A program made the position numbers and the translations under genes. From Massilia putida (GTDB lineage: Bacteria; Pseudomonadota; Gammaproteobacteria; Burkholderiales; Burkholderiaceae_D): DNA of 64,000 nucleotides. The stretch covers positions 5,456,001 through 5,520,000 of the forward strand of contig NZ_CP019038.1 in NCBI RefSeq assembly GCF_001941825.1. Direction: 5' to 3'. This document shows, piece by piece, positions 4,533 to 28,151 of the stretch (its first letter is position 1; each line of letters starts with the position of its first letter). The notes under the pieces are model-generated. The model was not told where the DNA came from, searched no databases, and saw only the letters and a list, made by a program, of their open reading frames with translations.

Positions 4533-7232
4533 TTATAATTTCTCGATCTGCCCGCGCGCATACCCCGCGCCCGACCCGTTCGGCGCCAGCTCGAGATAGG
4601 TCTTGTACGCCGTCTTCGCCTTGTCGCCGTCACCCGCGCGCGCGTACGCGTCGCCCAGGTTCATGTACGCGATCGCGCGCGACGGGTCCATCTTGATCGC
4701 GTTCTCGAACCAGCGCGCGGCTTCCGCGAACTTGTCCTGCTTGTAGAAGACGAAGCCGAGATTGTTGGCCGCCAGCGCGAAGTTCGGCCGCAGTTTCAGC
4801 GCTTCCGTGAACTGCGCCTCGGCCTGCGCGTACTGCTTTTCCTTGTACAGCTGCAGGCCATGATCGTTGGCGCGCTGCGCCTGCTGACGGCTCGACACCG
4901 GCACCGCGGCGGGCGCCTTGATCGTCTGTTCGCCGCCTTGCAGGTCCTTCACGACGACAGGCGCGGACGGCGCCGACGCCTTCGCGTCCAGCTTGGTGTT
5001 GAGGGCGATGGCATCGTTCGACAACTGCGCCGTGTTCGTGTTCAGGAACTCGCTTTCCTCGGGCAGTTCGAACACGAAGTCGCCGCCTTCGGAACCCGGC
5101 AGGCTGCCGAAGGCCGGCGTCTGCTGCGACACGCTGGCCACCGCCGGCGCCACGTACGCCGCCAGTTCCGTCGCGGTGATCAGGCCGTCGCCGTTCAGGT
5201 CGGCCTTGCCGCCGAGCCCCTGCAGCAGCGTCCATGTGAACACGGAGTGGCCGTTCGGACCGCCGTCCGACACCATCTGGTCCGTGCCGCCCGCCGTCAG
5301 CATCTGGCGGCCGAGGCGTTTGGCGTTATCGCGCAAAAAGGCCGCGTTGGCGCCGCCGCGCGTCAGACCGAGGCCGCTGTAGCAGGCGTCCATCACGAAC
5401 AGCACGTGCTTCGCCGGCAGGCTCTCGGCGATGTTCTGGATTTCCGTCATCGGGATGGCGTCGCTGGCCAGGTTCTCCGGATCGGCATCGTACGGCACGA
5501 TGTAGCCGAGATCGCGGCCGGAACTCAGCTTGCGCGTCGCGCCGTGGCCCGCGAAGAACACGAACACGCGGTCGTTGGATTGCAGCCCGCCGCTTTGTCC
5601 ACTGTTTCCGCCGTGGCCGGCGAGGTCGTGAAACGCGGCGAGGATGCCGCGGCGCGTGGCCTGTTCGTTCTTCAGCGTGATCACGTGGTCGGGCGCGAAG
5701 CCGAACTTCTGCACGAGCGTCTGACCGACGCCTTCCGCATCGCGCACGGCGTACTGCAGGTGCGGCCATTTCGGATAGCCGTCGACGCCGACGACGATCG
5801 CCCACGAGCTGGCATACCCCGTCGCGGCCGCGCGCGCGACGGGCGCCGGCGCGGCACGCGCGCCGCCGGCCACGCGGAAGGCCGCGCCGTCCCAGCCGGC
5901 GAACTGGTAGCCTTCGGCGACGAGACGGTCGAGGATCGCGGGCAGCGCCTTCACGGTGCGCTCGTGGATGTCGTGGAACAGGATGATGCCGCGGCCTTCC
6001 TTGTCGACCGCGCGCAACACGCGGTCGGCGATGGAGGAGGGCACCGGGTCGGCCCAGTCGAGCGAATCGATGTTCCACATGACCGACTTCAGGTGCGCAT
6101 CGGCCAGCAGGTGCATGCCCTCCTTGTTGCGCGCGCCGTAGGGAAAGCGGAATAGGCTCGATCGTTGCGGATCGACGGCTTTCAGCAGCGTGTCCGTATC
6201 GAAGATCTCGGCTTTCAGGGCGTCCCCGCTTTCCTTCGACAGCTGCGCATGCGTGAAGCTGTGATTGGCCAGCACATAGCCCGCGGCCTTCAGCTTGCGG
6301 CTGACTTCCGCGCCCGCGTTGAGGCGCGCGGCGCCGTGCGCATCGAGCGTGCCGAGGTTGCGCCCGACGCTGAAGAACACGGCCGGCGCATCGTACTGCT
6401 TCAGGATCGCGGCGATCTCCTCGCTGTAGCGGCGGTGCGGACCGTCGTCGAAGGTCAGCACGATCGTCTTCTTCGGCAGGCCCTTGCCGAAGATCTCGTC
6501 CTCTTCCTTTTGCGCCGCCTGGTCTTTATCTTGTTCCGGCGGCTCGGGCTTGGCCGGGTACGGCAGCACGACGCCATAGTCCTTGAGGATCCGGTCGCGC
6601 TGGTAAATCGTCTTGAGGTAGGCGACGTAGCTGTCCCACTTCTCGCGCTTGAGCACGATGGAGCGCGACTCGAAGCGCCCGAACACGGCGCGGATCTCCT
6701 TCTCGTAATTGCGCTCGATCTCGGCCAGCGCGTCGAGGTCTTCCGAGATGCGTTTATGCAGCTTGATCGCCGGCAGCGACGAATCCTTCGCCACGCGATC
6801 GAGCAGCGACTGCATCAGCTCGCGGAACGCAAGGCGGTCCGCATCGTACAGGCCCTCGTTCGACTCGACGTAATCGAGCAGGCTGCCGATCGCCTCGAAG
6901 CGGCGCGGATTCTGCGACCCGACGAGGCTTGCCAACGCGTCGTCGACCTTCGCGATGCGCTCCTGGTTCTCGTGGAACAGCTGCTGCCCGACGCGGTTGA
7001 CCTCTTCCTGTCCGGCTTTCGAGAGGCCCGCTTCGTCCTGCGTCAGCACGACCATCTTGCGATAGGCGGCCAGCACCTGCTGGAAGTCGGCGGCGATGGC
7101 GGCGGCTTCCTTGGGTTGTCCTTGCGGCTGTTGCGCCTGGGTTGCCGGCTTGCGGTTGGCGAGCCAGGTGCCGCTTGCGGCACCCGTCGCGGCGACGGCG
7201 AAGATGACGAGGTAGAGGGCTTTGCGTTTCAC
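4533..7232 (-). CDS. NodB deacetylase / caspase-like / EF-hand / TPR fusion
   Basis: An 899-aa multidomain envelope protein. Residues 1-25 form a membrane anchor or uncleaved signal; 40-220 are charged and helical. Residues about 255-445 are a polysaccharide deacetylase (NodB) domain with the metal motifs TFDDG (260-264) and HSFTH (324-328), FRFPYG, and HDIH (420-423). Residues about 473-725 are a caspase-like C14 peptidase domain with the dyad His563 (FAGHG) and Cys617 (DACYSG). A perfect 12-residue EF-hand loop (Asp678, Asn680, Asp682, Gly683, Ile685, Glu689) sits inside this region. TPR repeats fill 780-899. The start is GTG without a clear ribosome site, preceded by a good promoter. Predicted to act in the periplasm or at the membrane on glycan and protein. 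All catalytic residues appear present; the physiological role is unknown. Confidence 0.9.
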   Translation of the reverse strand: MKRKALYLVIFAVAATGAASGTWLANRKPATQAQQPQGQPKEAAAIAADFQQVLAAYRKMVVLTQDEAGLSKAGQEEVNRVGQQLFHENQERIAKVDDALASLVGSQNPRRFEAIGSLLDYVESNEGLYDADRLAFRELMQSLLDRVAKDSSLPAIKLHKRISEDLDALAEIERNYEKEIRAVFGRFESRSIVLKREKWDSYVAYLKTIYQRDRILKDYGVVLPYPAKPEPPEQDKDQAAQKEEDEIFGKGLPKKTIVLTFDDGPHRRYSEEIAAILKQYDAPAVFFSVGRNLGTLDAHGAARLNAGAEVSRKLKAAGYVLANHSFTHAQLSKESGDALKAEIFDTDTLLKAVDPQRSSLFRFPYGARNKEGMHLLADAHLKSVMWNIDSLDWADPVPSSIADRVLRAVDKEGRGIILFHDIHERTVKALPAILDRLVAEGYQFAGWDGAAFRVAGGARAAPAPVARAAATGYASSWAIVVGVDGYPKWPHLQYAVRDAEGVGQTLVQKFGFAPDHVITLKNEQATRRGILAAFHDLAGHGGNSGQSGGLQSNDRVFVFFAGHGATRKLSSGRDLGYIVPYDADPENLASDAIPMTEIQNIAESLPAKHVLFVMDACYSGLGLTRGGANAAFLRDNAKRLGRQMLTAGGTDQMVSDGGPNGHSVFTWTLLQGLGGKADLNGDGLITATELAAYVAPAVASVSQQTPAFGSLPGSEGGDFVFELPEESEFLNTNTAQLSNDAIALNTKLDAKASAPSAPVVVKDLQGGEQTIKAPAAVPVSSRQQAQRANDHGLQLYKEKQYAQAEAQFTEALKLRPNFALAANNLGFVFYKQDKFAEAARWFENAIKMDPSRAIAYMNLGDAYARAGDGDKAKTAYKTYLELAPNGSGAGYARGQIEKL

Positions 7233-8166: not shown

Positions 8167-8257
8167 GGAGAGATGGATGAGTGGTTTAAGTCGCACGCCT
8201 GGAAAGCGTGTATAGGTTCATAGCCTATCGGGGGTTCGAATCCCCCTCTCTCCGCCA
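8167..8257 (+). tRNA. tRNA-Ser(GGA)
   Basis: Class II tRNA of 91 bases including encoded CCA. Acceptor GGAGAGA pairs with TCTCTCC; the anticodon arm is CACGC-CTGGAAA-GCGTG, giving anticodon GGA (reads UCC and UCU); a long variable arm follows (TATAGGTTCATAGCCTATC), then the T arm GGGGG-TTCGAAT-CCCCC. The 3' part from the variable arm to the T loop reappears degenerately at 32448, so this gene was the integration target of the island. Confidence 0.95.
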
Positions 8258-8534: not shown

Positions 8535-9358
8535 GGTTCTGGTGCAAATCCCGGATGAGCGACAAGCTGATGGCGGCACGATCCTGGTAGCTCAGACAGC
8601 GAGGACAGCGGCCCAGATTTCAGACGGAGTTTGCCCTTGAGCAGTCAAATCACGCAAATCGAACTGGCCTTTGCGAATGCGATGCATGAGCTCGACGCTA
8701 CGAATTGCGATGGCGGCCGAACTGAACTTCTTTAGTCCCAGCATCGGGCCCAGCCTCGACTTCACGTTGCGATGGTCCTGCTCGATCAAATTGTTCAGGT
8801 ATTTTGATGAGCGAAGTCTTGTAGACCCGTCAAGTTGGCCTTGCTGCTGGAGTTCTCGGACGGCCCGGTGAGAAGCAGCGTGGCCGTCCAGCGTAATCAC
8901 GTCGGGCGAATATCCCTGCGAGCGAACAGCCTTGCGAAAGAATGCCTTGGCCGCGGCGACATTGCGTCTCGTGCTGAGCCGGAAGTCGACAGTCTGGCCT
9001 ACAGCGTCAACTGCCCGGTAGAGATAAGCCCACTGGCCGCGGATCCTCACATAGGTTTCGTCGACGCGCCACGAGGCTCCTGGCCGGACAGCGAAGCGCC
9101 CCAGCGCTTGTCGAATTCAGGCGTGTAGCGCTGGACCCAGCGAAGGATGGTCGTGTGCGAGATCGACAGGCCTCGCTCGGCCATCATCTCGACGAGGTCA
9201 CGGTAGGAAAGCTTATAGCGCAGGTACCAGCGCACGCGAAGCACGATGATTTCCTGCTCGAAGTGGCGGCCCCTAAACAGGTTGCTGTTGCTCGGATGGT
9301 TACGCATGCTGGGCAAAGCTCGTCATTCTAGCCGAGCCGTAGGTTTGCACCAGAGCCG
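8535..9358. mobile_element. IS6-family insertion sequence
   Basis: About 824 bp bounded by inverted repeats GGTTCTGGTGCAAA (8535) and TTTGCACCAGAGCC (ends 9358), one mismatch. Size and ends suit the IS6/IS26 family. No matching 8-bp target duplication flanks it, so it probably arose with a deletion of the 5' half of the integrase, a typical result of IS6-type replicative transposition. Confidence 0.85.
8592..9316 (-). pseudogene. IS6-family transposase, frameshifted
   Basis: DDE transposase in two frames. The N-terminal part (9316 to about 9100) has the HTH region SYRDLVEMMAERGLSISHTTILRWVQRY. The C-terminal part, read from about 9095 to 8592, contains the catalytic start WRVDETYVRIRGQW, then VDFRLSTRRNVAAAKAFFRKA, the second Asp in VITLDGHAA and the HRNVKSRLG glutamate region. 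Adding one C to the four-C run at 9099-9102 restores RWGRFAVRPGASWRVDETY in a single frame, so this is a one-base deletion in a homopolymer. Either the gene is inactivated, or this is a sequencing error. Total length would be about 240 aa, as usual. Confidence 0.85.
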
Positions 9359-9499
9359 AAAAGATCCCATAACGCCTCACAGCAAACGTTGGCGATACAG
9401 GTCACCAAGGTCGCCCAACTCGAAGAACGCATCGCGTTGTATGGGGCATTTTTACATGTATCTCGGCTGCCCCTTTGACGATGGCGCTCCCCTTCCACG
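9359..9499. other. spacer between IS6 element and peptidase gene
   Basis: About 140 bases in which I see no gene, promoter or clear terminator. Minus-strand transcription from the biosynthetic operon would run out here into the IS element. Confidence 0.5.
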
Positions 9500-11185
9500 T
9501 CAGTTGCGCTGAGACGCAGTCTCATCGCGGATCGCACGGAACTCTGAGTCCATGTTCCAGTTGGGCCAACGCCGCGAGTTCGCCAGGTCACGGCCGAATT
9601 GATGAAGGATCTGCAGATCCCGAGCCATGCCGGTAAACGGCCATGATGCTTGCCATTCATCACTACGCTGGTGGTAGCGGTGGGCATTGTAATCGGCCGC
9701 CTCGGCGTCGCCTGCGGCGGTGCCGCCGTCGTACCAATCGTTACCGGACTGAAACCATAGCGCCGGAACCCCGCGCTTGGCGAATGAGAAATGGTCGGAG
9801 CGGAAGAAACGGCCCGCCTCCAGATGCGGATCGGGCGTGAAGCGCACATTCCAGCGCCGCGCGGTGGCTTTCAAATCGTCAAGCAGTTCCAGCTTGGCGT
9901 TGCCGGCGGAGGTGAAATTATGCGCCGGGCCGTGCGGGTCCAGGATGTCGACATTGATCACGCCGGCGGTCTTGGCCAGCGGATACAAAGGATTGGCGAC
10001 GTAATACTCCGAACCGAGCAGTCCGCGTTCCTCTGCGGTCACGACCAGGAATACCACCGAGCGCTTCGGCAACGGTCCGTGGGAGAACTGGCGGGCCAGT
10101 TCGAGCAGGCTGGCGGCGCCGCTGGCATTGTCGAGCGCACCGTTGAAAATGTAATCGCCTTTGGCATCGGGCGCGCCGGTGCCCAGATGGTCCCAGTGCG
10201 CGACGTAAACCACCGATTCGTCCGGATAGAGGTGCCCTTCGATCCGGCCTACCACGTTTTGCGAAGTGATCGTGGAAAGGTTGACTGCATATTGCGTCGA
10301 GAACCGCGCATCGCCGAGTTCGATCGGCTGGAAGGCGCGGGTCTGTGCCGTACGCTTGAGCGCTTCGAAATCCAGGCCGGCACGCTGGAACAAGGCCACG
10401 GCAGTGTCGCGATGAATCCAACCCTCCAGCAAGGGATGCGCCGCCGCCGGATTGGTGCGAACGATGTCGAAGCGCGGCAGGGTATCGGTATTGCGCACCG
10501 AGTCCCAGCCGTAGGACGCCGGCGCGGTCTCGTGCACGATCAGCATGCCTTTGGCGCCGCGTCGCGCGGCTTCCTCGAACTTGTAGGTCCAGCGGCCGTA
10601 GTAAGTCATCTCGCGGCCACCGAAATCGCCGCTACCGGTCTCGAAGTCCGGGTCATTGATCAGCACCAGGGCGATCTTGCCGTGCAGATCCACTCCCTTG
10701 AAATCGTCCCATTGGCGCTCGGGCGCGTTGACGCCATAGCCGACGAAGACGATCGGCGCATTGTCGATGGCCACCGTGCCGGAACCGTTCAAAGTAGCGC
10801 GCATCACGATTTCCTGCCCCTGGGTCAGGGTTTGCTGCGTGCCGGCCAAACTAATGGTCGCCTGTGGCGTCCCCACGTTTTCACTGCGCAGCAGCGGCAC
10901 CGCCTGAGTCCAGCCACGCTTGCCGTTGTGCACGTCGCCGCCCGGCTGCAAGCCGGCGTGGCCCATCTGCGTGATCAGGTAACCAACACTGCGGTTTTCT
11001 CCGCCGGTGGCCGGGGCACGGCCTTCGTAAGTGTTGGATGAGAGGATTCGTACATCCTCGGACAGCCGCTTCGGCGACAACGCCGCTATGAAAGGCGGCG
11101 CGAACGTTGCTGAAGGTGGTACCAGTGGCGCCGCGTTCGCCGCACCGACCATGCCGATCAGAGCACACAAAATCAGATGCTTCAT
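9500..11185 (-). CDS. secreted M28-family metallopeptidase
   Basis: A 561-aa zinc aminopeptidase of family M28 with a signal peptide (KHLILCALIGMVGAANA|AP). A PA-domain insert (about residues 130-280) precedes the catalytic domain. Zinc ligands are recognisable as HWDHLG (His), GALDNASG (bridging Asp), the catalytic pair in AEERGLLGS (Glu-Glu), an Asp in VDILDPHG and the late His in the segment AHRYHQRSDEW. It is the last gene of the Dpg operon, 56 bases after dpgC, same strand. A secreted peptidase could trim an exported amino-acid conjugate, supply amino acids, or be a passenger; the sequence does not decide. Confidence 0.85.
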   Translation of the reverse strand: MKHLILCALIGMVGAANAAPLVPPSATFAPPFIAALSPKRLSEDVRILSSNTYEGRAPATGGENRSVGYLITQMGHAGLQPGGDVHNGKRGWTQAVPLLRSENVGTPQATISLAGTQQTLTQGQEIVMRATLNGSGTVAIDNAPIVFVGYGVNAPERQWDDFKGVDLHGKIALVLINDPDFETGSGDFGGREMTYYGRWTYKFEEAARRGAKGMLIVHETAPASYGWDSVRNTDTLPRFDIVRTNPAAAHPLLEGWIHRDTAVALFQRAGLDFEALKRTAQTRAFQPIELGDARFSTQYAVNLSTITSQNVVGRIEGHLYPDESVVYVAHWDHLGTGAPDAKGDYIFNGALDNASGAASLLELARQFSHGPLPKRSVVFLVVTAEERGLLGSEYYVANPLYPLAKTAGVINVDILDPHGPAHNFTSAGNAKLELLDDLKATARRWNVRFTPDPHLEAGRFFRSDHFSFAKRGVPALWFQSGNDWYDGGTAAGDAEAADYNAHRYHQRSDEWQASWPFTGMARDLQILHQFGRDLANSRRWPNWNMDSEFRAIRDETASQRN

Positions 11186-11241
11186 CTATTTCTCTCCTGC
11201 GTAAAAGAAGTTGACCAAAGGGGCATGCGTTGAAGCGCCGA

Positions 11242-12576
11242 TCAGGCGCGGCGCAGCCAGAACTGTTCCAGGTTGTCGAGGATTTCCTTGCCGTACATGC
11301 ATTGCGCCTGCTCGCGGCAGAACGTCGCCATGTACAGGCGGAATTGCTCGATCGGTTCGACGGCCTGGCGGAAGGCCTTGCGGTTACTGACGATGCCATG
11401 CGTGCCCATGGCCATCATGTCGTCGGCGGCGCGGTCGATCGCGGCATCCATGTCTTCGCGCGCCACCACCTCGTCGATCAGCAACCGGCCTTCGGCGCTG
11501 TCCACGTCCAGACGCGCGTTGCGGTAGATCAGCCGGTTCGCCAGCCGCCGTCCCAGGTATTGCGGCAAACGCAAGTTGGCCAAGCCGGGGATGAAGCCTT
11601 CGGCGCGCGCCGGAATCGACACGAAAGCGCCACTTTCGGCGATCGCATGATCACAGACCAACAGCAGCTGACAACCGCCGCCGATGGCATGGCCTTCCAC
11701 CGCGGCGATCCACGGCTTCTCCACACCGCGATCAGGCACGTCGGTGAGTGGATCGCCTCCACCCCACAGCCCACGCCAGAGTTTGCTGACCAAACCCAGC
11801 TCGCGCTCGACATAGAACCGGTACGGCAACTGCCCGCGATAGAGCTTGGTCAGATTGACCCCGGAGCAGAACACCCGCCGCCCGCGATACTTGGGATGCT
11901 GCATCACCCCGCCGCGCAATACACCGACCTGTACTTGAGGATCGAGCAACGCCACATCGACCGCGATTTCCATCGCATCGACCAGTACCTCGTCCTCGGC
12001 GTTGAGGCAATCGGGGTTGTTGAGCAGCAGATGTGCCTGATGGCCGTGTCGATGCAGGGCGACCAGGCCGAGATCGAGTTCGCCCGTGCTCTGGAACTGT
12101 GCCAGCGCCGCGGCCGATTCCGGCCGCGGTTGACGCATCGATGCCATCAGATGTCTGCCCACCGACGGGATCGCCAACCATTGCGCCAGCACCAGGCCCA
12201 GGCTCAGCTCGAATCCGTATTTGTCCTTCAGTTCCAGTTTCGCATCGGCTGCCAGTTGCTCGGGTCGTGGCAGCAGCCCGGGCACGATGTCCGGAACGGC
12301 GGCCAGCAATGCGTCGAGCCGATGCATGCGCCGGAAGTGATCGGTCAGTTCGCGATAAGCGCGCTCACCGTGGGTGGCGACGAAATCGGCGCGCGCCTGC
12401 GCATCGGTAGCACGCCAGGCGCGCCGCTGTTCCGGTGTCGACCGCGCCACATCCGATTCGAACCTGGCCAGGCCGTGCTCGAACCAGCGCGCTAACCGTT
12501 GCGTGTCTTGCGCGTAACTCTCTGCGCACGGCGACGGCGGGGCGGCCGCCCATTCCTGCAAAGTTGCTGTATCCAT
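11242..12576 (-). CDS. dpgC: DpgC-like 3,5-dihydroxyphenylacetyl-CoA 1,2-dioxygenase
   Basis: A 444-aa crotonase-fold protein with the long N-terminal helical extension (about residues 1-190) that sets DpgC apart from ordinary 260-aa enoyl-CoA hydratases. Diagnostic blocks seen: RVFCSGVNLTKLYRGQLPY, then RELGLVSKLWRGL, KPWIAAVEGHAIGGGCQLLLV, then SIPARAEGFIPGLANLRL, EGRLLIDEVV and the closing FRLYMATFCREQAQCMYG. In glycopeptide producers DpgC uses O2 without any cofactor to turn 3,5-dihydroxyphenylacetyl-CoA into 3,5-dihydroxyphenylglyoxylate and CoA. Here it lies 52 bases after the MaoC gene in the same operon as dpgA, dpgB and dpgD. The presence of all four dpg genes makes the call strong; the in vivo product is still an inference. 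Confidence 0.9.
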   Translation of the reverse strand: MDTATLQEWAAAPPSPCAESYAQDTQRLARWFEHGLARFESDVARSTPEQRRAWRATDAQARADFVATHGERAYRELTDHFRRMHRLDALLAAVPDIVPGLLPRPEQLAADAKLELKDKYGFELSLGLVLAQWLAIPSVGRHLMASMRQPRPESAAALAQFQSTGELDLGLVALHRHGHQAHLLLNNPDCLNAEDEVLVDAMEIAVDVALLDPQVQVGVLRGGVMQHPKYRGRRVFCSGVNLTKLYRGQLPYRFYVERELGLVSKLWRGLWGGGDPLTDVPDRGVEKPWIAAVEGHAIGGGCQLLLVCDHAIAESGAFVSIPARAEGFIPGLANLRLPQYLGRRLANRLIYRNARLDVDSAEGRLLIDEVVAREDMDAAIDRAADDMMAMGTHGIVSNRKAFRQAVEPIEQFRLYMATFCREQAQCMYGKEILDNLEQFWLRRA

Positions 12577-12628
12577 GATGGTTGGTTCACTCGCTGACAG
12601 TGACAGGGCTGGATCGGGCTACAGGCAT

Positions 12629-13147
12629 TCAGTAGTCGATCCGATCCTCGACCGCATGGCCGCGCATCGGCACCAGCACGGTGCGCTTGTATTCGCACAC
12701 CACGGTGCCGTGCTGGTTCTTGCCGGTAGTCTTGACCTCGACGATGCCGGCGTTCTTGCGTGAGTTCGACAGCCGCTTGGACAACACTTCGGATTCACCA
12801 TACAAGGTGTCGCCGACGAACAGCGGCGCGGGTAGCTTGATGTCGGTCCAGCCGAGATTGGCGATCGCCTTCTGACTGACGTCAGCGACGCTCATGCCGC
12901 CGAGCACCGAGACGGTGAAACCGCTGGCGACCAGGGTGCGGCCGAACTCGGTGCCCTTGCCGTACTCATTGTCGAAATGCAGCGGATGGGTATTCATCGT
13001 CAGCAGGGTGAACCAGATGTTATCGGTCTCGGTGATCGAACGGCCGGGACGATGCTGGTAGAGATGACCGACTTCGAACTCTTCGTAGTAGCGGCCGTAG
13101 CTGGCACGGAATACGTTCGGGGCGACTTCCTTGATGCTTCGCGTCAT
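12629..13147 (-). CDS. MaoC-family hydratase/dehydratase
   Basis: A 172-aa hot-dog-fold protein with the (R)-hydratase pattern: EVGHLYQHRPGRSITETDNIWFTLLTMN ... HFDN, then LVASGFTVSVLGGMS and FVGDTLYGESEVLSKRLS. The usual catalytic Asp/His pair of MaoC hydratases may correspond to TETDN and PLHFDN. ATG 13147 has GAGGAAACC upstream; the longer TTG start (13165) is unlikely. It follows the CitE-like gene by 61 bases. A MaoC gene beside a CitE-like gene recalls actinobacterial itaconate/methylglutaryl-CoA dissimilation pairs, in which a hydratase feeds a lyase. What acyl-CoA it acts on here is unknown. Confidence 0.85.
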   Translation of the reverse strand: MTRSIKEVAPNVFRASYGRYYEEFEVGHLYQHRPGRSITETDNIWFTLLTMNTHPLHFDNEYGKGTEFGRTLVASGFTVSVLGGMSVADVSQKAIANLGWTDIKLPAPLFVGDTLYGESEVLSKRLSNSRKNAGIVEVKTTGKNQHGTVVCEYKRTVLVPMRGHAVEDRIDY

Positions 13148-13208
13148 TGGGGTTTCCTCAGGCAATCAAGCTAATGGTGCGCGCCGAAATGACGGCACGC
13201 GGCGGCAA

Positions 13209-14057
13209 TCAGGTTTCGGCGTACAGGCGCAGCATGGCGCGGGCATGGGCGACGAACGGCGGCGCGATCACGCGCCCGTCCACCACCGAGAAGCCGGATT
13301 TGGCGCGCCCGTAATCGGCGATGGTTGCGCGCCAGACGTCCATTTGCGCTTCGTCGAGAGTGAAAATACGGTTGGTCACGGCGATCTGCGCCGGATGCAC
13401 CATCGCCTTGGCGGTGAAGCCCTCGGCGCGCCCGGCCAGGCATTCCTGCTCGAACCGATCCAAGTCCATGATGTCGGCGCCAGTGCGAAAACCGGCGGTA
13501 TCGATCGCAGGGATGCCGCGGCCGGCACAGGCCACGCAAAAGCGCGCCCGCGCGTAAGCGATGTAGGCCGGATTGGGCCGATACATCGCCGCTTCCATGT
13601 CAACCCGGCCGAACATCATTGCATCGCTGGCCTCGGCGATCTCTTCGACGTGATCCACACCGCGCGGCGTTTCGACGATCGGGATCAGGCGGGTGCTGCA
13701 GCCGGCATCGTTCAGCACCGCACGACACAGCTCCAACTCACTGCGTGCTTCAGTCTTGGGCAATTGAATGAACGACAGACCGCTGTCGCCGTCACACAGG
13801 CGTTTGGCAACCGTACACAGATCCAGCAGACCGTCGCGGGTCTTGAGGCTGTTGATGCGGATGCCGAATCCCGGTCTGCGCCCGGCGAAGCTGCTCAGAT
13901 CGAGCCGGGCAAAGACTTCGCGCGCCTCATCCTTGTGGCGGACGTGGACCGAGTCTTCGAGATCCAGGATCACCATGTCGGCGCCGAAGCCCGGATCCGG
14001 CAGCAAGGGATCGAAGCGCAGCACCGAGGTATTCAAATACGAGACATCTATTTTCAT
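13209..14057 (-). CDS. CitE-like HpcH/HpaI-family aldolase/lyase
   Basis: A 282-aa TIM-barrel CoA-ester lyase. Family marks: VSYLNTSVLRFDP (in place of the usual RS-x-L..P), VILDLEDSV, GIRINSLKTRDG, LIPIVETPRGV with the metal-binding glutamate, MMFGRVDMEA, and the C-terminal AMVHPAQIAVTNRIF. Relatives cleave or form malyl-, methylmalyl-, citramalyl- or hydroxymethylglutaryl-CoA with Mg2+. ATG 14057 (MKIDV) has GGAG 7 bases upstream; the longer start at 14111 overlaps dpgB. It lies between dpgB and the MaoC gene. It may supply or consume a CoA thioester for the pathway; no stand-alone citrate lyase partners are present. Confidence 0.85.
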   Translation of the reverse strand: MKIDVSYLNTSVLRFDPLLPDPGFGADMVILDLEDSVHVRHKDEAREVFARLDLSSFAGRRPGFGIRINSLKTRDGLLDLCTVAKRLCDGDSGLSFIQLPKTEARSELELCRAVLNDAGCSTRLIPIVETPRGVDHVEEIAEASDAMMFGRVDMEAAMYRPNPAYIAYARARFCVACAGRGIPAIDTAGFRTGADIMDLDRFEQECLAGRAEGFTAKAMVHPAQIAVTNRIFTLDEAQMDVWRATIADYGRAKSGFSVVDGRVIAPPFVAHARAMLRLYAET

Positions 14058-14085
14058 CGCAAGCTCCGGCTCGAGGGCAAGGTGG

Positions 14086-14814
14086 TCAGGATCGTCCGCG
14101 CGCGACGTCATCGCAGCGCGTCTGCGCCGCCATGAAATGCCCCAAACCGGTTTCGTAACCGCTGCTATGCGCTTCGCAGATCAGGCGGCGGCACATCTGC
14201 AGGGCGACGCCATCGTCCTGCGGCAGGCGCGCTGCAAGCTCGTACACGTACTGGTCGAGCTGATCGGCGCCGAGCACACCGTCGATCAAACCTGCTTCGC
14301 GCGCGCGCGAAGCATCCCAGGTTTCGCCGAGCAGCAGCAGCCGGCGCGCGGCGCGAGCACCGATCAGCCGCGGCAGGCGATTCACGCTCAGGCCCGGCAG
14401 ATGCCCGTCGCGCACCTGTGGGCAACCGAAACTCGCGTTGGCGGCGGCAAAACACAGATCGGCGGCCACCGCCAGTTCGAATGGCGCGCCGACACACAAC
14501 CCATGGACCCAGGCGACGCTGATCACCGGTAACGATTCCATCCGCTGGATCTGCTGTTCCAGACGGCGATGTTCGCTGATCCGCAATTGGGTATGCGCTT
14601 GCGCGTCGCTGGTGACACTGGGATAGCGCAACACCAGCAGTGCGATACGGCCATCATCCTCGATCTTATCGAGCAAAGCGCCAAGCTGCTCGATCAATGC
14701 CGAAGGCTCGTGACCGATGTCCGCGCCGTCCAACCAAAAGATGCCGACTTCACCGCCGCGGATGGGAGCACGGTCGAGCACGAGGTCCAGCTCGATGCTG
14801 TTCAATTGATTCAT
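14086..14814 (-). CDS. dpgB: DpgB-like enoyl-CoA hydratase-family protein
   Basis: A 242-aa crotonase-fold protein, divergent from the neighbouring DpgD copy. It keeps the oxyanion-hole segment SVAWVHGLCVGAPFELAVAADLCFA but has cysteine/valine instead of the usual A-x-GGG run, matching the degenerate form of DpgB. In vancomycin-type pathways DpgB stimulates DpgA and, with DpgD, drives dehydration/aromatisation to 3,5-dihydroxyphenylacetyl-CoA. ATG 14814 has GGAGG 8 bases upstream and is preferred over 14829. It sits 52 bases after dpgA and 28 before the CitE gene. The assignment rests on its divergence, size and position among dpgA, dpgC and dpgD. Confidence 0.82.
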   Translation of the reverse strand: MNQLNSIELDLVLDRAPIRGGEVGIFWLDGADIGHEPSALIEQLGALLDKIEDDGRIALLVLRYPSVTSDAQAHTQLRISEHRRLEQQIQRMESLPVISVAWVHGLCVGAPFELAVAADLCFAAANASFGCPQVRDGHLPGLSVNRLPRLIGARAARRLLLLGETWDASRAREAGLIDGVLGADQLDQYVYELAARLPQDDGVALQMCRRLICEAHSSGYETGLGHFMAAQTRCDDVARGRS

Positions 14815-14866
14815 TCGATGATCCTCCATGTATGGGTCTGCATCCGGGAATCGCGCCGGATCTAGC

Positions 14867-15925
14867 TCAAAAACGGGCCAGGCAGCACTCGATGCTCGCG
14901 CCCGGCCCCATCGTCATCATTACCGTGTAGTCGCCAGGCGCGGTCACTTGTTCTTCCAGCAGGCGCCGGTGCGAGAACAGGAACGACCCGGAGGACACAT
15001 TACCCATCTCGGCCAGCACGCTTTCGGTATGCCGCAGCGCATGCGAGGACAAACCGAGATTGAACTTGATCGAATCGATGACCTTGCGACCGCCAGAATG
15101 GATGATCCAGTGCGCGATATCGCGTATCCGCAGGTTGTGACGCGACAGCAGTCCCTCGATCGGATACCTGACGTTGGCGCCGATCACGTAAGGAATGTCG
15201 CGATCCAGGTAGAAGGAATACTTGCCGTCGACATGATCGAAACGCATGGCGTCGATGTGATCGGTGATCACATGCGACCGGAAATCCAGGACTTCGGGGC
15301 CGACCGGTGCAGACTCGCCGCGTGGTCCGAAGATCGCCGCGACGGCGCCGTCGCCAAACAGAGAATTGACCACGGCGGTGCGGATCGTACCGTCGAAGAC
15401 GTAGGAGGCCGAACATATCTCCACGCACACCAGCGCTGCGTGCCGGCTTGGATTGAGCCTGCAGTAGTTGACCAACGGCTGCATACCGTTGAGTCCGGCA
15501 CTGCAGCCCATGCCAACGACGTCCAGGCGGTGCACATCCGGGCGCAAGCCAAGCTCCTTGGCCACGTACGCGGACAGGCCGGGGCACAGAAAGCCGGTCG
15601 AGGTCACGCAGGCGATGTAGTCGAGATCATCGGGCCGCAAGCCGGCGGTTTCCAGCGCGCGCCGCGTCGCCTCCACGCCGGCGGCTACCGCTCCGCGTTT
15701 GTGTTTGGCGGCAAGCTCAGCGCTGCTTTCGGCCTCGATGCGGCCGTTCGGCCTGGCCTGCGGTAGGTCCAGATAGCGCTTGCTGATCCGCGAATTGCGG
15801 AATAGCCTGACCAGTTTGCTGTCAGTGACGTCGAACAGATCGATCAGCTGATCGTTCGTATAGGCCTGACCCGGGTTGGTGGTGGCGATACTGAGCACGC
15901 GTGGGGCGGATAATACGTTGGTCAT
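14867..15925 (-). CDS. dpgA: DpgA-like type III polyketide synthase
   Basis: A 352-aa chalcone-synthase-fold homodimeric enzyme. The triad is visible: Cys141 in VVGMGCSAGLNG, His276 in HSGGRK, Asn309 in GNVSSGS. Family DpgA condenses four malonyl-CoA to a C8 chain and cyclises it to 3,5-dihydroxyphenylacetyl-CoA. The blocks LFRNSRISKRYLDLP, STGFLCPGLSAYVAKELGL and SASYVFDGTIRTAVVNSLFGDGA are those of the DpgA branch rather than of plant-like or alkylresorcinol synthases. The start overlaps the dpgD start region by the last four bases of dpgD's neighbour arrangement (ATGA at 15922-15925), so the two are coupled. No acyl carrier protein is needed. Confidence 0.92.
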   Translation of the reverse strand: MTNVLSAPRVLSIATTNPGQAYTNDQLIDLFDVTDSKLVRLFRNSRISKRYLDLPQARPNGRIEAESSAELAAKHKRGAVAAGVEATRRALETAGLRPDDLDYIACVTSTGFLCPGLSAYVAKELGLRPDVHRLDVVGMGCSAGLNGMQPLVNYCRLNPSRHAALVCVEICSASYVFDGTIRTAVVNSLFGDGAVAAIFGPRGESAPVGPEVLDFRSHVITDHIDAMRFDHVDGKYSFYLDRDIPYVIGANVRYPIEGLLSRHNLRIRDIAHWIIHSGGRKVIDSIKFNLGLSSHALRHTESVLAEMGNVSSGSFLFSHRRLLEEQVTAPGDYTVMMTMGPGASIECCLARF

Positions 15926-16653
15926 GAAAACGTCCTATGTTGATTTCGCTCGTAAAGGAGTCCCTGGGCCAGTGACTCCAGATCTGCCTGCGCCCGCTGC
16001 TGTTCTTGCGCAAGCAGGATTTTCCCGAGCCGAAAGGCCATCGGGTCGAGCCCGGCGGCGGTTTCGGCCAATGCCAGCGCACGCGCCTGGTAATCCCCGC
16101 CGCATTCCGCGACCAGTCCCCAGGACTGCGCGGTGACGGCATCGAGCATGCGTTGGAACAAAATGATTTCGGCCGCGCGAGCGTGACCGATCAAGCCCGG
16201 CAGCCTGCGTACGCCACCGGCTGCCGGGGTGAGACCCAGCGACAATTCGGGCAGGGCGAATCTCGCTTCGGCGCTGCACACGCGGATATCGCAGGCCAGC
16301 GCCAGTTCCAGCCCGCCGCCGATCGCGGCACCATTGATGCAGGCGACAGTCGGCAACGGCAACTCGGCGAGCCGGTCGAAGACTTCACGGCTGAACAACT
16401 CGATGCCGTCCAAGGCGCCGCGCGTACGTAACTCGTCGCGGTCGGCACCGGAGCAGAACGCGCGGTCGCCGCTCCCGGTCACGATGATCGCTTTGACCGA
16501 GGCATCGGCGCGAGCTTCGTTCAGAGCCGCATCCAGTTCGGTCAGCAAGACTTGATGATAGGCGTTGGCGCGCTCGGGCCGATCAAGCCGCAACCTGCGC
16601 ACCGCGCCATCATGGCCGATCTGTTCAACCCGTACGAACGAACGCGACGACAT
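15922..16653 (-). CDS. dpgD: DpgD-like enoyl-CoA hydratase
   Basis: A canonical 243-aa crotonase: RLDRPERANAY, GSGDRAFCSGADRDEL with the oxyanion loop, and PTVACINGAAIGGGLELALACDIRV, then FALPELSLGLTPAAGGVRRLPGLIG with the catalytic-glutamate region. In Dpg pathways DpgD works with DpgB in the dehydration steps after DpgA. Its stop overlaps the DpgA start (ATGA), and it lies 61 bases after the MFS gene. It could be mistaken for a fatty-acid degradation hydratase, but the operon with dpgA, dpgB and dpgC decides. Confidence 0.88.
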   Translation of the reverse strand: MSSRSFVRVEQIGHDGAVRRLRLDRPERANAYHQVLLTELDAALNEARADASVKAIIVTGSGDRAFCSGADRDELRTRGALDGIELFSREVFDRLAELPLPTVACINGAAIGGGLELALACDIRVCSAEARFALPELSLGLTPAAGGVRRLPGLIGHARAAEIILFQRMLDAVTAQSWGLVAECGGDYQARALALAETAAGLDPMAFRLGKILLAQEQQRAQADLESLAQGLLYERNQHRTFS

Positions 16654-16714
16654 TGCAGCTCTCCATCATGTGAAATTTCATTCCATTGCACGCGCATCTG
16701 CTGCGCTGTGATTT

Positions 16715-17947
16715 TCAATGCGCCGGTTGCCCGGCCGGACCGGCGATTCGCGCGAACGCCATTGGCGCGAAAAAAGCGCTGAAAACGATGACCGCCGCCG
16801 TCACCAATACCGGCACTGCGATGCTCTCGACTTGGCCCGGTGCATACGCGGCGGCGTAGCGGATGCTCAAGGCGCCACCGAGCGCTTCCATCCCGCCCCA
16901 GACCAGCGAGGTCAGGGTGTAGGCCGAGGTCAGATTGCGACCGGCGAAAATCTCTGCGGTCCATACGTCCAGCAGCGGCGCCCACAGCGCTTCAGACAAA
17001 GTGAATACAACCAACGCGATGAACAGCATCCACCAGTAAGCGGTGGGCGCCAGGCACAGCAACAGGACCGAGACCGACAATAACGCCGCCGACAACCGGT
17101 ACAGTTGTGGCCCGGCCCCGCCACTGCGCACAGCTGCAACGCGCTTGAGGATCTGCCCCTGGAACAAGCCGATAATCGCCGCGTTCAACGCAAACAGATA
17201 ACCGATGTAAGGTTCCGCACCTGTATCGCGCACATACACCGGCAGACACGAGAAGTACTGCGCCGCGCCTACAAACAAGAAACTGGTCAGGATCAGAAAC
17301 GCGAACCGCTCCGATAACAGCTGCAGCCATGCACGCGGCAATGCCGCGCTCTCCGCTGCAGCCGGCATTTGAGACGCTGGCGAGGTGTCGGCCTTCAGTG
17401 CGATCAGCGCCGCGACAAGCAGCAATGCCAGTGCAAGGGCGGCCAGTGCCAGCGGCTGCCGGCTGACCAGCAGGGAGCCGGCGATCGCACCGAGGCCCGC
17501 GCCCGCGTTGATGAAGCGGTTCAGATGCCCAAATGCATCCAGCCGCTGTGCCGGTAAGGTCGCTTCGGCCAGCGCCGACTTGGTTGAGACATTGGCACAT
17601 GCCAGCAACACACCGAACACGGCCACCAGTGCTGCCAGCGGCAGAACCTGCGTGAACAACAATGGACGTAGTCCGATCAGCACCGCCAAAGCCAACGCCG
17701 CGCCGAAGTAACACCCACGCAGCGCACGCTGGCCGATCACCCGCCGCAACACGATCGCGAACAAGCCGCCGGCACGGATCGCCAGGATACCGATGCCAGC
17801 CACCAGCGCGACCGAGGCTGCGCTCATCCCCGCCTCGGCCAGCAGCCACACGGGCAGATAGGGCATCAGCACGAAAGTAGCCGCGCTCGATGCGCCGCGA
17901 CTCCATACGATGGCCTTGCTCGATGTGTTTGACCGACTCGCGCTCAT
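16715..17947 (-). CDS. MFS transporter
   Basis: A 410-aa major facilitator with about 12 hydrophobic segments; the N-terminal half starts FVLMPYLPVWLLAEAG and the loop 2-3 region reads GLFAIVLRRVIGQRALRGC, a loose MFS motif A (G-x-x-x-x-R-x-G-x-R). A central hydrophilic loop near residues 195-210 separates the halves. It resembles drug-type exporters of the MFS_1 group. It starts 11 bases after the AOS stop and is followed by dpgD, so it is the likely exporter of the pathway product. Substrate is inferred from position only. Confidence 0.85.
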   Translation of the reverse strand: MSASRSNTSSKAIVWSRGASSAATFVLMPYLPVWLLAEAGMSAASVALVAGIGILAIRAGGLFAIVLRRVIGQRALRGCYFGAALALAVLIGLRPLLFTQVLPLAALVAVFGVLLACANVSTKSALAEATLPAQRLDAFGHLNRFINAGAGLGAIAGSLLVSRQPLALAALALALLLVAALIALKADTSPASQMPAAAESAALPRAWLQLLSERFAFLILTSFLFVGAAQYFSCLPVYVRDTGAEPYIGYLFALNAAIIGLFQGQILKRVAAVRSGGAGPQLYRLSAALLSVSVLLLCLAPTAYWWMLFIALVVFTLSEALWAPLLDVWTAEIFAGRNLTSAYTLTSLVWGGMEALGGALSIRYAAAYAPGQVESIAVPVLVTAAVIVFSAFFAPMAFARIAGPAGQPAH

Positions 17948-17958
17948 GGAATGTCCTT

Positions 17959-19179
17959 TCAGGCAGTCAGTGCGGGCTCGTGCGCCATTGGTCGCGTGAT
18001 GGCTTCCTCGATGGCGTCACAGAATTCCTTCATTTGCTCGCGACTCATGTCGGCGCGCATCATCATGCGCAAGCCGGCCTTGCCGCGCGGCACGATCGGA
18101 AAGAAGATCGCCGACACGTAGAATCCGCGCGCCAGAATGCGCTGTGAGGCCTCGATTGCGGCTTCGGCTTCCCCCACCTCGACGAAGCGGATCGGCAGGC
18201 CGTTGCCGGCGTCCTTGGAAGCCAGGCGCGAATCGAAATAGGCGATGTTCTCCTGCAATCGGCCCTGCAGATCGGCGACTTCGCTAGTCAGGTGCAGCTT
18301 GGCCGTGGCCAGTGCCGAGCCCATGCCGGGCACGCTGAACTGCTGGGACCAGCCGGTCGGGCCGTTGGCGAAATCGAACAGTTCGCGGATACGCGCCGAA
18401 CCGGCTAGGATCACTCCGCCGATCGCGCCGAACGACTTGGCTAGCGAGCCGGAAATAATGGTGCGATCGCCAAGCGCACCGAACGCCGGACGCATGTAAC
18501 CGTGACCACGCGGCGCGTACGCCGAGATCGAATGCGAATCGTCAATGTACAGATACAGGCCGTAGGTGTTCTGCAGGCGCACGATATCGTGGATCGGCGC
18601 GACGCCGCCGGTGCTGTAGGCGCCGTCGCAGACGTAGACCACTTTCTCGTGGTTTTTGCATAGCTCTTCGAGCGCGACCATGTCGTTGTGATCGATGGTC
18701 ACGACCTCGGTTTCGTCACCGCACGAGGCTTTCATGATGGTCATCGAGAAATGGCAGCGCTTGTCGAACACCACGACCGGCTTCTTGCCCTCGGTGAGGT
18801 GGCCGGAGGCGTATAACGGCAGCACCGTGGCGGAGGCCACGAAGCACGACGGCGTCAGATAAGCCTCGCATTCGAACAGCTGCGACATCGCATCCTCGGC
18901 CTCGCTGAGCAGGGCCGGCGCGATGCGGGTGCGCGAAACCGAATGGTTGAGCACGCCTTCGCGCTCGATCGCGTCAATGGCGCCGCGCAGGATTGCCGGA
19001 TGCCGGTTCAACCCAAGATAGGAGCACGACACCATGTTGGTGAACGCATGCCCGTCGAGGATCAACTGACCATTATCGCCTTTGGTCGTACGTACCTGCA
19101 CAAGACCATGCTCGGCTCCGGCTCTCCAGCTTTTTTCGCCGAGCGCGATGACTTTTTCCATGTTGGCGAACTTGCCCAT
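17959..19179 (-). CDS. alpha-oxoamine synthase-family PLP enzyme
   Basis: A 406-aa fold-type I PLP enzyme of the BioF/Kbl/Spt/CqsA group: SCSYLGLNRHPAI (substrate loop), SVSRTRIAPAL, then DKRCHFSMTIMKAS with the stacking histidine, VCDGAYSTGG, IDDSHSISAYAPRG with the PLP-binding Asp/His, and SGSLAKSFGAIGG containing the Schiff-base lysine. Such enzymes condense an amino acid with an acyl thioester, losing CO2, to give an alpha-aminoketone. 3,5-Dihydroxyphenylacetyl-CoA made by DpgABD is the obvious acyl donor here, which is inference. GGGAG lies upstream of ATG 19179. It is second in the operon, 34 bases after the OCD-like gene and 11 before the exporter. Confidence 0.88.
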   Translation of the reverse strand: MGKFANMEKVIALGEKSWRAGAEHGLVQVRTTKGDNGQLILDGHAFTNMVSCSYLGLNRHPAILRGAIDAIEREGVLNHSVSRTRIAPALLSEAEDAMSQLFECEAYLTPSCFVASATVLPLYASGHLTEGKKPVVVFDKRCHFSMTIMKASCGDETEVVTIDHNDMVALEELCKNHEKVVYVCDGAYSTGGVAPIHDIVRLQNTYGLYLYIDDSHSISAYAPRGHGYMRPAFGALGDRTIISGSLAKSFGAIGGVILAGSARIRELFDFANGPTGWSQQFSVPGMGSALATAKLHLTSEVADLQGRLQENIAYFDSRLASKDAGNGLPIRFVEVGEAEAAIEASQRILARGFYVSAIFFPIVPRGKAGLRMMMRADMSREQMKEFCDAIEEAITRPMAHEPALTA

Positions 19180-19213
19180 AACTGCATCTCCCTATAGTGT
19201 TGGGTAACAAGAC

Positions 19214-20182
19214 TTATCGATTGGCGTTACTGAGTGCTTGCGTGTTGCTCATGACATGCCGCGACGCAACCAGGTCCAGCAACGCATGGCCGGTCGAAGC
19301 AAAGATGGTTCGTTGTTGCGATAGCGGCGATTTCGCTGCCAGCAATTCGCCGATGCTGATCGCATGCTCGTGATCAGGGCCGGCTTCGCTAAGCGCGGTC
19401 ATCTTGTCTTCGACGATAACGCACGAGTCACGCAGGATCGACGATGCGATCTCACGTGATTGAGGCGTATGCGCGCCCATGCAGTTGATGTGCACATCGG
19501 GCCGCACCGCGTCCAGCGACTCGATCAGCGGCAGTGTCGAGGTCGTCGCGGTGACCAGCACGTCGGCATTTGCGATCGCCTGCGTTGGTGAGTCGCAAAC
19601 CACGAACTCGGCCGATGGCGCGAGCTGGCGCGCCTGCTCGACAAACCGGGTGGCACGCGCGGCGGTGCGTGAATACACTTGAATCCGCTCGATGTCGCGC
19701 ACCGACAGCGCCGCGCGCACTTGTTGCAACGCCTGCACGCCTGCGCCGACCAGCCCCAGTACACGGCTGTCGCGCGGTGCGCAGTGCTCGGTCACCAATG
19801 CGGCCACCGCCGCGCATTTGAGATTGGTGACGGCAGTGCCGTCCAGGATCGCGAGCAACGAACCGTCCAGCGCCGAGATCGCTACGATGATGCTGCCGGA
19901 AGTGATTCCGACCTCGGCCAGCTGCGGAACGATCGCACCGATTTTGCAGATGAAGAGTTGATCCCGCTCACTGTAGGCCGGCATCGACGCGAAGGCGGAA
20001 AACGGATTCTCACGCCAGATCACCGCACGTTGCGGAATATCCCAGTTGCTGGGAGGCGCCATGTAGGCCACGGTGAGTTCGCGGCGCAAGATATCTAAAT
20101 CGGAGAATGAAGCGATCTCATCCTTGAGAATTACATTACAAAATGCGGTCAACATGCGCGAGTCCATTCGTGCCAATGGCAC
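19214..20182 (-). CDS. ornithine cyclodeaminase / mu-crystallin-family protein
   Basis: A 322-aa NAD(P)-binding protein. Rossmann motif GLVGAGVQALQQVRAAL (GxGxxxxxQ) near residue 138; also VTNLKCAAVAALVTEHCAP, INCMGAHTPQSREI and VIVEDKMTALSEAGP, all typical of the family, which includes ornithine cyclodeaminase, alanine dehydrogenase, SbnB-type amino-acid dehydrogenases and ketimine reductases. First gene of the operon. A ketimine reductase acting on a cyclised aminoketone is an attractive role but not shown. The first codon may be GTG 20182, ATG 20167 or ATG 20155; none has a clear ribosome site, so the exact start is uncertain. Confidence 0.85.
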   Translation of the reverse strand: MPLARMDSRMLTAFCNVILKDEIASFSDLDILRRELTVAYMAPPSNWDIPQRAVIWRENPFSAFASMPAYSERDQLFICKIGAIVPQLAEVGITSGSIIVAISALDGSLLAILDGTAVTNLKCAAVAALVTEHCAPRDSRVLGLVGAGVQALQQVRAALSVRDIERIQVYSRTAARATRFVEQARQLAPSAEFVVCDSPTQAIANADVLVTATTSTLPLIESLDAVRPDVHINCMGAHTPQSREIASSILRDSCVIVEDKMTALSEAGPDHEHAISIGELLAAKSPLSQQRTIFASTGHALLDLVASRHVMSNTQALSNANR

Positions 20183-20229
20183 GTATCTGTTTATTAAATA
20201 GATTAAAGGAAATGCTGTGTTCGATGGGA

Positions 20230-20258
20230 ATGTAACTCGAATTTGGAACGATTGTCAA
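20230..20258 (-). promoter_or_regulatory. candidate promoter of the Dpg operon
   Basis: Minus strand: perfect TTGACA (20258-20253), 17-base spacer, TTACAT (20235-20230; only three matches to TATAAT). It is the only strong -35 box in the AT-rich region ahead of the operon, about 45 bases before the first candidate start. No operator or regulator gene is visible next to it. Confidence 0.5.
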
Positions 20259-24941: not shown

Positions 24942-24995
24942 GCCACAAGCGGACGTTATCTGCTTGGCCCATCCCTATAATTCAGGACACATACC

Positions 24996-25463: not shown

Positions 25464-25477
25464 CTCATGCGGTAATA

Positions 25478-25583: not shown

Positions 25584-25661
25584 GTGGATGTTATAAGACA
25601 TGCATTTTCAAGCAGCCCGCGATGTTAGACTTTGGCACTTCCACCATCCGTGAGCAGGACC

Positions 25662-25868: not shown

Positions 25869-25903
25869 CAACCTATGCCTGTAGCTCCTGGACAGCTTCT
25901 CGA

Positions 25904-28137: not shown

Positions 28138-28151
28138 TGCGTATTCCGCCG

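Follow-up and report, generated by a model that had tools for sequence, protein, structure and literature searches.

Described Systems and the Massilia putida Operon

Among the closest described systems is the ketomemicin (ktm) pathway of Actinomycetota, which operates without a nonribosomal peptide synthetase (NRPS) and which, according to PMC11943689, comprises an aldolase, a pyridoxal phosphate (PLP)-dependent C-acyltransferase, a dehydratase, a ligase, an amidinotransferase, and a dehydrogenase. The same source names the arphamenines of Chromobacterium violaceum as inhibitors of aminopeptidase B (PMC11943689). The subject of the present work is an operon of ten genes in a 64,000-nucleotide stretch of the Massilia putida genome (contig NZ_CP019038.1, positions 5,456,001–5,520,000; hereafter, the window), in which a CitE-family aldolase, a MaoC-family dehydratase, and a PLP-dependent C-acyltransferase of the alpha-oxoamine synthase (AOS) family, resembling those of the ktm set, are combined with genes of the 3,5-dihydroxyphenylglycine (Dpg) pathway. 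Reportedly, Kawata et al. showed in 2017 that the ketomemicin aldolase joins phenylpyruvate with malonyl-CoA. We think it probable, if by no means assured, that the operon encodes a ketomemicin/arphamenine-type pathway that works without an NRPS and has 3,5-dihydroxyphenylglyoxylate in the place of phenylpyruvate.

The features shared with the ktm set are KtmA (CitE family), KtmB (AOS family), and KtmC (MaoC family), all three residing in the one operon. A zinc-type dehydrogenase, presumably KtmF, had no match in window positions 1–40000 with the model that recognizes it in three other loci (L093, L096, and L099); an enzyme of the ornithine cyclodeaminase (OCD)/mu-crystallin family is present instead. 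No amidinotransferase (KtmE) was found by Pfam among the ten operon proteins, and the operon is not classed as a ktm cluster, since three of the six ktm features lack a counterpart. In comparison with ktm, it additionally possesses a keto-acid supply of the DpgABCD kind, an M28 peptidase, an exporter of the major facilitator superfamily (MFS), and the OCD-family enzyme in the place of the dehydrogenase.

The Dpg pathway of glycopeptide producers (DpgABCD-HpgT-NRPS) has in common with the window DpgA and the DpgB-, DpgC-, and DpgD-type genes; unlike it, the window lacks an operon-borne HpgT and an NRPS, and its DpgC lies outside the canonical group. The original prediction had described this pathway as best known from actinobacterial clusters, which needs the qualification that Proteobacteria also possess it along with an NRPS, as in Xanthomonas (PMC3849588) and in a fragmented genome of the window's own genus (G006). 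In the latter, dpgA, dpgB, dpgC, an aminotransferase at the position of HpgT, dpgD, and an NRPS reading frame exceeding 4000 codons occupy a single 32-kb contig, and DpgA is 51% identical to that of the window. The kendomycin-type starter pathway is another NRPS-free use of dpg genes; there, according to PMC8708025, 3,5-dihydroxybenzoate is reached by way of a decarboxylase and an aldehyde dehydrogenase, whereas the operon has neither. A locus of Streptosporangium saharense (L024) looks like a pathway of this kind, judging from N-terminal sequence and gene order: its dpgABC are followed by an apparent thiamine-dependent decarboxylase and an apparent aldehyde dehydrogenase.

The predicted absence of an NRPS extends to the whole genome (7.52 Mb, three contigs), where the condensation domain PF00668 had no match; the same search was positive in 4 of 14 control genomes, including E. 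coli and B. subtilis. HpgT was not found among the operon proteins by Pfam, nor was a close homologue found elsewhere in the genome: the best of eight matches to the HpgT-position aminotransferase of G006 was 31% identical, and this protein has a G006 orthologue as well (32%), besides the HpgT-position gene of that genome. DpgA matches at E 1e-30 occurred in 3 of 62 genomes of the genus (the own genome, G006, and G024), of which the G024 protein (33% identity, 164 bits versus a cut-off of 425) was not counted as DpgA. A DpgA scan of genome contigs, which reaches close relatives only, returned Massilia mucilaginosa CCM 8733 (95%) and two actinobacteria (49–52%). No AOS match at E 1e-30 was obtained in three genomes with other dpg loci (G833, G834, and the NRPS-bearing G006). 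No description of the Dpg and AOS–CitE–MaoC combination was found among the papers listed in searches of the open-access literature, an absence that is not proof; no arphamenine gene cluster was found there either.

The AOS–CitE–MaoC Module and Its Distribution

Families were assigned with Pfam and NCBIfam for all ten proteins, and with PDB sequence comparison for six of them. The KtmB-like AOS (17959–19179; like all ten genes, on the minus strand) scores 490 bits with NCBIfam NF005697 (cut-off, 342). Its closest PDB match and nearest solved relative is Alb29, the albogrisin AOS (8XHA, 314 bits), which belongs to a different cluster and, according to PMC11906848, takes L-glutamate with acyl-CoAs. 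The KtmA-like CitE/RipC-type aldolase (13209–14111) matches Pfam HpcH_HpaI with 63.7 bits and has RipC as its top NCBIfam match (143.6 bits, below the cut-off of 375). The KtmC-like MaoC dehydratase (12629–13147), the start of which is an ATG within a longer TTG frame, scores 63 bits with Pfam MaoC and 206 bits with NCBIfam RipB/Ich, below the cut-off of 340.

Relatives of this AOS were sought in evenly drawn subsets of genomes, and stretches of 10–20 kb were examined around them; absences hold within these stretches, four of which (L049, L051, L092, and L101) are cut by contig ends. In the window's order, Burkholderiales (399 genomes), the own locus and four others were found, and all four of the latter harbor CitE and MaoC, in L051 with about 7.6 kb between them and the AOS. 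The search of 328 actinobacterial genomes gave 12 loci, spread over 11 genomes, with both genes in 12/12; a sample of 316 genomes of the same class yielded two AOS loci, one already counted and a new one (L117) accompanied by CitE and MaoC. CitE and MaoC thus stand beside AOS in 13/13 actinobacterial and 4/4 other same-order loci, i.e., in 17 loci besides the Massilia pair (the window and L023 of M. mucilaginosa), and no dpg genes were found in the examined stretches of these 17. The resulting 19 loci are the window, L023, L049–L052, L091–L102, and L117; the locus HMMs were built partly from the loci searched, so their E-values for those loci, including those of the M24 and M28 peptidase models, are not independent evidence.

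This recurrence outside the Massilia pair led us to reject the idea that CitE and MaoC are chance neighbours. Equally rejected was the idea that AOS relatives in general imply the pathway: among 398 genomes of the phylum, the own locus, that of G048 (already counted), and three AOS loci lacking CitE and MaoC were detected, and eight of the 567 AOS-matching plasmid records were examined, none of which had either gene in the stretch, which makes 11 such AOS loci (3 genomic, 8 plasmid-borne). The CitE/MaoC link is, therefore, a property of part of the AOS family.

Since AOS relatives accompany CitE and MaoC in 17 dpg-free loci, what the AOS accepts as its substrate is, in all likelihood, the product of CitE and MaoC. 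In the original prediction, the AOS joined an amino acid directly to 3,5-dihydroxyphenylacetyl-CoA, and the OCD-family enzyme reduced a derived imine to give a dihydroxyphenyl amine or alkaloid. This is attractive inasmuch as the DpgA product is an acyl-CoA from the same operon and a precedent exists in dynaplanin DynZ, a PLP-dependent C-acyltransferase that adds a phenylacetyl group (PMC9239090). However, DpgC, CitE, and MaoC would have no role in it, and seven loci (L050, L052, L095, L100, L101, L102, and L117) combine AOS, CitE, MaoC, and OCD in a stretch that contains no dpg gene; neither its AOS step nor its imine reduction is upheld, and we consider such a route improbable. The part of that proposal which survives is an aminoketone arising by AOS-catalyzed C–C bond formation; in the pathway favored here, the predicted product is a ketomethylene pseudodipeptide rather than an alkaloid.

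Five of the actinobacterial loci (L091–L094 and L096) are called ktm-like because they combine a PGM1/ATP-grasp ligase (detected by Pfam in L092 and L093 and by similarity in L091, L094, and L096), a zinc-type dehydrogenase, CitE, AOS, and MaoC. The five genes lie in a row in L092, L093, L094, and L096; in L091, the dehydrogenase is on the opposite strand, and the ligase is about 8 kb off. No amidinotransferase was identified in the ktm-like loci: a candidate in L091 was dropped, as its frame runs antisense to the zinc-type dehydrogenase, and another in L093 had no Pfam match.

The Dpg Proteins and the Keto-Acid Supply

All four dpg gene types claimed by the original prediction are present in the operon; only DpgA, however, exceeds its NCBIfam cut-off. 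This type III polyketide synthase (14867–15925; NF042429, 452.9 versus 425 bits), which is expected to convert malonyl-CoA into 3,5-dihydroxyphenylacetyl-CoA, does possess the catalytic triad Cys141-His276-Asn309 ascribed to it. The crotonase in the DpgB place (14086–14829) has DpgB as its top NCBIfam match, and the crotonase in the DpgD place (15922–16653; Pfam ECH_1) scores 122 bits against a DpgD cut-off of 400, being better matched by generic enoyl-CoA hydratase models (156 bits). The cofactor-free dioxygenase of the DpgC type (11242–12576; 299 bits by phmmer versus DpgC 2np9) is predicted to turn an arylacetyl-CoA into an arylglyoxylate. Of six active-site positions, presumably those given in the DpgC structure papers, our mapping finds five conserved (E189, H222, R254, G296, and Q299), I235 being replaced by Val. 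Its group in the DpgC tree lies outside both the canonical DpgC and the pgl-type groups; pgl-type relatives take phenylacetyl-CoA. This group also takes in proteobacterial DpgC-like dioxygenases from L053 (G591), L054 (G726), and L060 (Tistrella mobilis pTM3), which retain most active-site residues and have no DpgA in the stretches examined.

The dpg and module genes are interleaved (AOS-MFS-DpgD-DpgA-DpgB-CitE-MaoC-DpgC) and, being parts of one operon, probably serve one pathway. The output of a Dpg gene set is 3,5-dihydroxyphenylglyoxylate, according to PMC3849588. This is an aromatic alpha-keto acid, i.e., a member of the substrate class of the aldolase; hence, the Dpg set would fit a ketomemicin-type core. 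The fit, deduced from gene content and chemistry, is the core of our reading.

Another conceivable fate of the glyoxylate is amination by the OCD-family enzyme with ammonia and NAD(P)H, given that alanine dehydrogenase and iminosuccinate reductase belong to the OCD family (NCBIfam and PDB matches) and that a close HpgT homologue was not found in the genome. The same OCD subfamily is encountered in dpg-free cassettes and hence has a role independent of Dpg, which makes this explanation rather unlikely.

Proposed Pathway and Product

In the ketomemicin/arphamenine-type pathway proposed here, DpgA and the DpgB- and DpgD-type crotonases would form 3,5-dihydroxyphenylacetyl-CoA from malonyl-CoA (step 1), and DpgC would oxidize it to 3,5-dihydroxyphenylglyoxylate (step 2). 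CitE would then join the glyoxylate to a CoA-borne acetyl unit, from malonyl-CoA or acetyl-CoA, yielding an aryl-malyl-CoA (step 3), from which MaoC would remove water to give an aryl-fumaryl-type CoA (step 4). The AOS would condense this thioester with an amino acid, with loss of CO2 and CoA, to an aminoketone (step 5). Before or after step 5, the OCD-family enzyme, taking the place of KtmF, would reduce the conjugated C=C bond (step 6), delivering hydride to the carboxylate-adjacent carbon of either the enone or the enoyl-CoA, by analogy with the imine carbon that receives it in known OCD reactions. The expected product is an H-Xaa-psi[CO-CH2]-(3,5-dihydroxyphenyl)glycine isostere, HOOC-CH(Ar)-CH2-CO-CH(NH2)-R, with a mass equal to that of the amino acid plus 164.0473; the MFS protein would export this pseudodipeptide. 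Family membership and active-site residues support step 1, and homology together with a comparison of gene content supports steps 2–5; the identity of the amino acid and of the product, step 6, the order of steps, and the biological role are what we infer from the whole.

The predicted compound would share with the arphamenines its size class and the free ketomethylene pseudodipeptide architecture; in contrast to them, its aromatic ring would be attached to the alpha carbon itself and bear 3,5-hydroxyl groups. It would likely act as an aminopeptidase inhibitor.

A different assignment of CitE would have it join 3,5-dihydroxyphenylacetyl-CoA with glyoxylate in a reaction of the beta-methylmalyl-CoA type, followed by dehydration by MaoC and extension by the AOS, with DpgC relegated to a minor or side branch. 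It is chemically sound, and the two PDB entries that match MaoC best represent a beta-methylmalyl-CoA dehydratase and a MaoC-domain dehydratase; on the other hand, DpgC would compete for the substrate, and the top NCBIfam match of CitE, below cut-off, is RipC, which we take to be a citramalyl-CoA lyase with a keto acid as acceptor. We regard this variant as very unlikely.

The OCD-Family Enzyme as a Proposed Reductase

The OCD-family enzyme (19214–20182; Pfam PF02423, 145 bits) is classified as an NAD(P)H oxidoreductase; its best OCD-family model (144.4 bits) is far from the ornithine cyclodeaminase equivalog cut-off of 417. Among the 19 AOS–CitE–MaoC loci, OCD is found in nine, the zinc-type dehydrogenase in six, neither in four, and both in none. 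The probability of no overlap by chance is 0.008, or 0.011 if the Massilia pair is taken as one, assuming independent loci, which are partly related; it is no more than suggestive.

The signature NCMG[AS]H is common to the OCDs of the window, L023, L050, L052, L095, and L117. A search of 109 other loci gave two matches, both representing the L117 place itself. The OCDs of L100–L102 lack the signature; accordingly, "OCD" here covers two subfamilies. In two plasmid searches with OCD, general OCDs were among the matches listed (the best 15 of 655 and the best 15 of 775).

Several module loci contain further genes. In L100, L101, and L102, a protein of about 430–510 amino acids (60–64% identical, with no Pfam match in L100 and L102) accompanies AOS-CitE-OCD-MaoC. 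In L050 (G147), AOS-CitE-MaoC-OCD precede genes for an SDR, a lone condensation-like domain, and an ATP-grasp protein, next to Trb conjugation genes in a stretch of low GC content (0.32). A gene near L051 position 8246 (minus strand) and one at L052 10331–11254 encode proteins 37% identical to each other, without a Pfam match in L052, and perhaps represent a pathway step.

The Peptidase Gene

The last gene of the operon, overlooked by the original prediction, which correctly located the other nine, including the AOS, OCD-family, CitE, MaoC, and MFS genes, encodes an M28 metallo-aminopeptidase (9500–11185; Pfam Peptidase_M28, 161 bits) with an N-terminal signal-like sequence, as judged by eye. 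It lies within the block common to M. mucilaginosa. In the 19 loci, M28 peptidases are present in two and M24 peptidases in three (L051, L100, and L117), with a weak fourth M24 match near L052; this tally was found by looking, and its sole control consists of the 11 other AOS loci, in which these models detected no peptidase. Since arphamenines inhibit aminopeptidase B and peptidases occur in some cassettes, it is a reasonable guess that the M28 peptidase may be a target copy or a means of producer protection.

The most far-reaching version of the proposal would make the operon the source of a third natural family of ketomethylene pseudopeptides, with a vancomycin-type dihydroxyphenyl keto acid that is built from malonate and enters the peptide mimic with no amination at any point, a C=C reduction performed by an OCD fold, and a mobile operon carrying its own aminopeptidase as a target copy or immunity determinant. 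In this full form, it is put forward tentatively and may well fail in one part or another.

The Same Operon in Massilia mucilaginosa

The recurrence of AOS together with DpgA, which the original prediction proposed as a check, was found in a second species: locus L023 of M. mucilaginosa CCM 8733 (Oxalobacteraceae, Burkholderiales) has the identical gene order and 91–97% protein identity except for MFS. The genome of this species contains one condensation domain, on a contig other than that of the operon. The common block spans window positions 9423–20234 (L023 4511–14273), with sharp edges, unlike flanks, and a gap at 16870–17936 in the MFS gene. This gap corresponds to an internal deletion in L023, which leaves the start and the last 52 codons of the gene (L023 ~6790–6970); the other nine genes are whole.

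With blastn, the whole window and L023 share only two pieces, of 94.5% and 95.4% identity. For an ordinary aminotransferase locus present in both genomes, the identity is 79.6% across 1.8 kb (one gene pair only); at the same locus, the window genome and G006 show 82.6% and M. mucilaginosa and G006 80.3%. The excess of similarity in the operon over the ordinary locus, along with the unlike flanks, points to a recent horizontal movement, and the operon is apparently a mobile unit. For the nine genes whole in both species, dS is 0.08–0.16 and dN/dS 0.09–0.37; hence, these genes are under selection. The conservation of the operon in the second species is far more than would be expected by chance.

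Evidence Weighing against the Proposal

A number of findings speak against the pathway as proposed. DpgC and DpgB are below their NCBIfam cut-offs (393.6 versus 530 and 95.7 versus 140 bits, respectively), and the window DpgC groups with proteobacterial relatives lacking DpgA in the 20–31 kb examined. The ATP-grasp/PGM1 peptide ligase KtmD had no match in window positions 1–40000. L040 carries a PGM1 ligase beside AOS with neither CitE nor MaoC, so the ligase alone proves little. The exporter has been lost in M. mucilaginosa. As for the reductase, OCD enzymes act on C=N bonds and are not known to act on C=C bonds, no reductase of either kind is in the stretch of four of the 19 loci, and a Lys replaces the usual family Arg in three of the four independent NCMG-signature OCDs aligned (the Massilia pair, L050, and L052), with L095 keeping Arg. 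The OCD step is the weakest of the proposed pathway.

The phylogenies, from each of which loci lacking a match for the given gene (L105–L109 and others) are absent, point in both directions. In favor of the proposal, the window CitE groups with those of the Burkholderiales AOS loci L051 and L052 at 100/100 support; L052 is, however, a long row in this tree, and the split between cassette CitE and five other CitE proteins has only 70/61. The deep branches of the AOS tree lack resolution, and the tree is compatible with a single origin of the module as well as with several. Against the proposal, the window MaoC has nearer relatives in AOS-free loci (Tistrella L104, 93/85; tblastn found no AOS in L103–L109) than in the other AOS loci; MaoC may thus have been exchanged.

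The MaoC relationship is also what speaks for a catabolic operon, degrading aromatic or C5-dicarboxylic acids, in which CitE and MaoC would run in the lyase direction: the window MaoC is 61–64% identical to MaoC of AOS-free loci, e.g., of Variovorax (with CoA transferases and an acyl-CoA dehydrogenase) and Tistrella. Such an operon is nevertheless hardly credible, considering that DpgA and AOS are biosynthetic, that an MFS gene is present, that no CoA transferase or ligase was found by Pfam among the ten proteins, and that an exporter (L049, L051, L052, and L099) or a peptide ligase (L092 and L093) is found in 6 of the 17 linked loci (by Pfam, the others being only partly scanned). Among other CitE-MaoC arrangements, a plasmid of Amycolatopsis sp. 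AA4 (L108, 1251–9454) has the pair next to an amino-acid dehydrogenase, a lysine 2,3-aminomutase, a PLP aminotransferase, and an MFS gene, and is possibly another natural product locus based on CitE/MaoC.

Operon Structure and Neighbouring Features

The ten genes run from 20182 to 9500 in the order OCD-AOS-MFS-DpgD-type-DpgA-DpgB-type-CitE-MaoC-DpgC-M28 peptidase, the putative MFS exporter (16715–17947) matching Pfam MFS_1 with 58 bits. The spacings are 34, 11, 61, -4, 37, -26, 61, 52, and 56 bases in operon order; values between -26 and +61 bases fit a single transcript. A promoter-like site (TTGACA-18-TACATT, 20229–20258), recognized by consensus match only, lies 47–76 bases upstream of OCD. 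It is weak evidence for an operon start; four such sites occur in 11.7 kb versus a mean of 3.1 in shuffled sequences.

The left neighbour of the operon is a tRNA-Ser(GGA) gene on the plus strand (8167–8257; ARAGORN and Rfam), besides which Rfam found nothing. Alongside this tRNA gene, the operon is flanked by transposase genes of different IS families, one at 8592–9050 and others at 23319–32058.

Significance

If the proposed pathway is correct, the operon would represent a third type of ketomethylene pseudopeptide biosynthesis, characterized by a resorcinol side chain, and the module would be flexible in its keto-acid supply. The reduction of a C=C bond would be new chemistry for the OCD fold. 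To our knowledge, this would also be the first pathway to employ the Dpg keto acid for anything besides Dpg itself and benzoate starters. Overall, the operon probably specifies a small peptidase inhibitor made without a peptide synthetase, and the combination of AOS, CitE, and MaoC with either OCD or the zinc-type dehydrogenase may serve as a search handle for likely peptidase inhibitors beyond the reach of NRPS-based genome mining.

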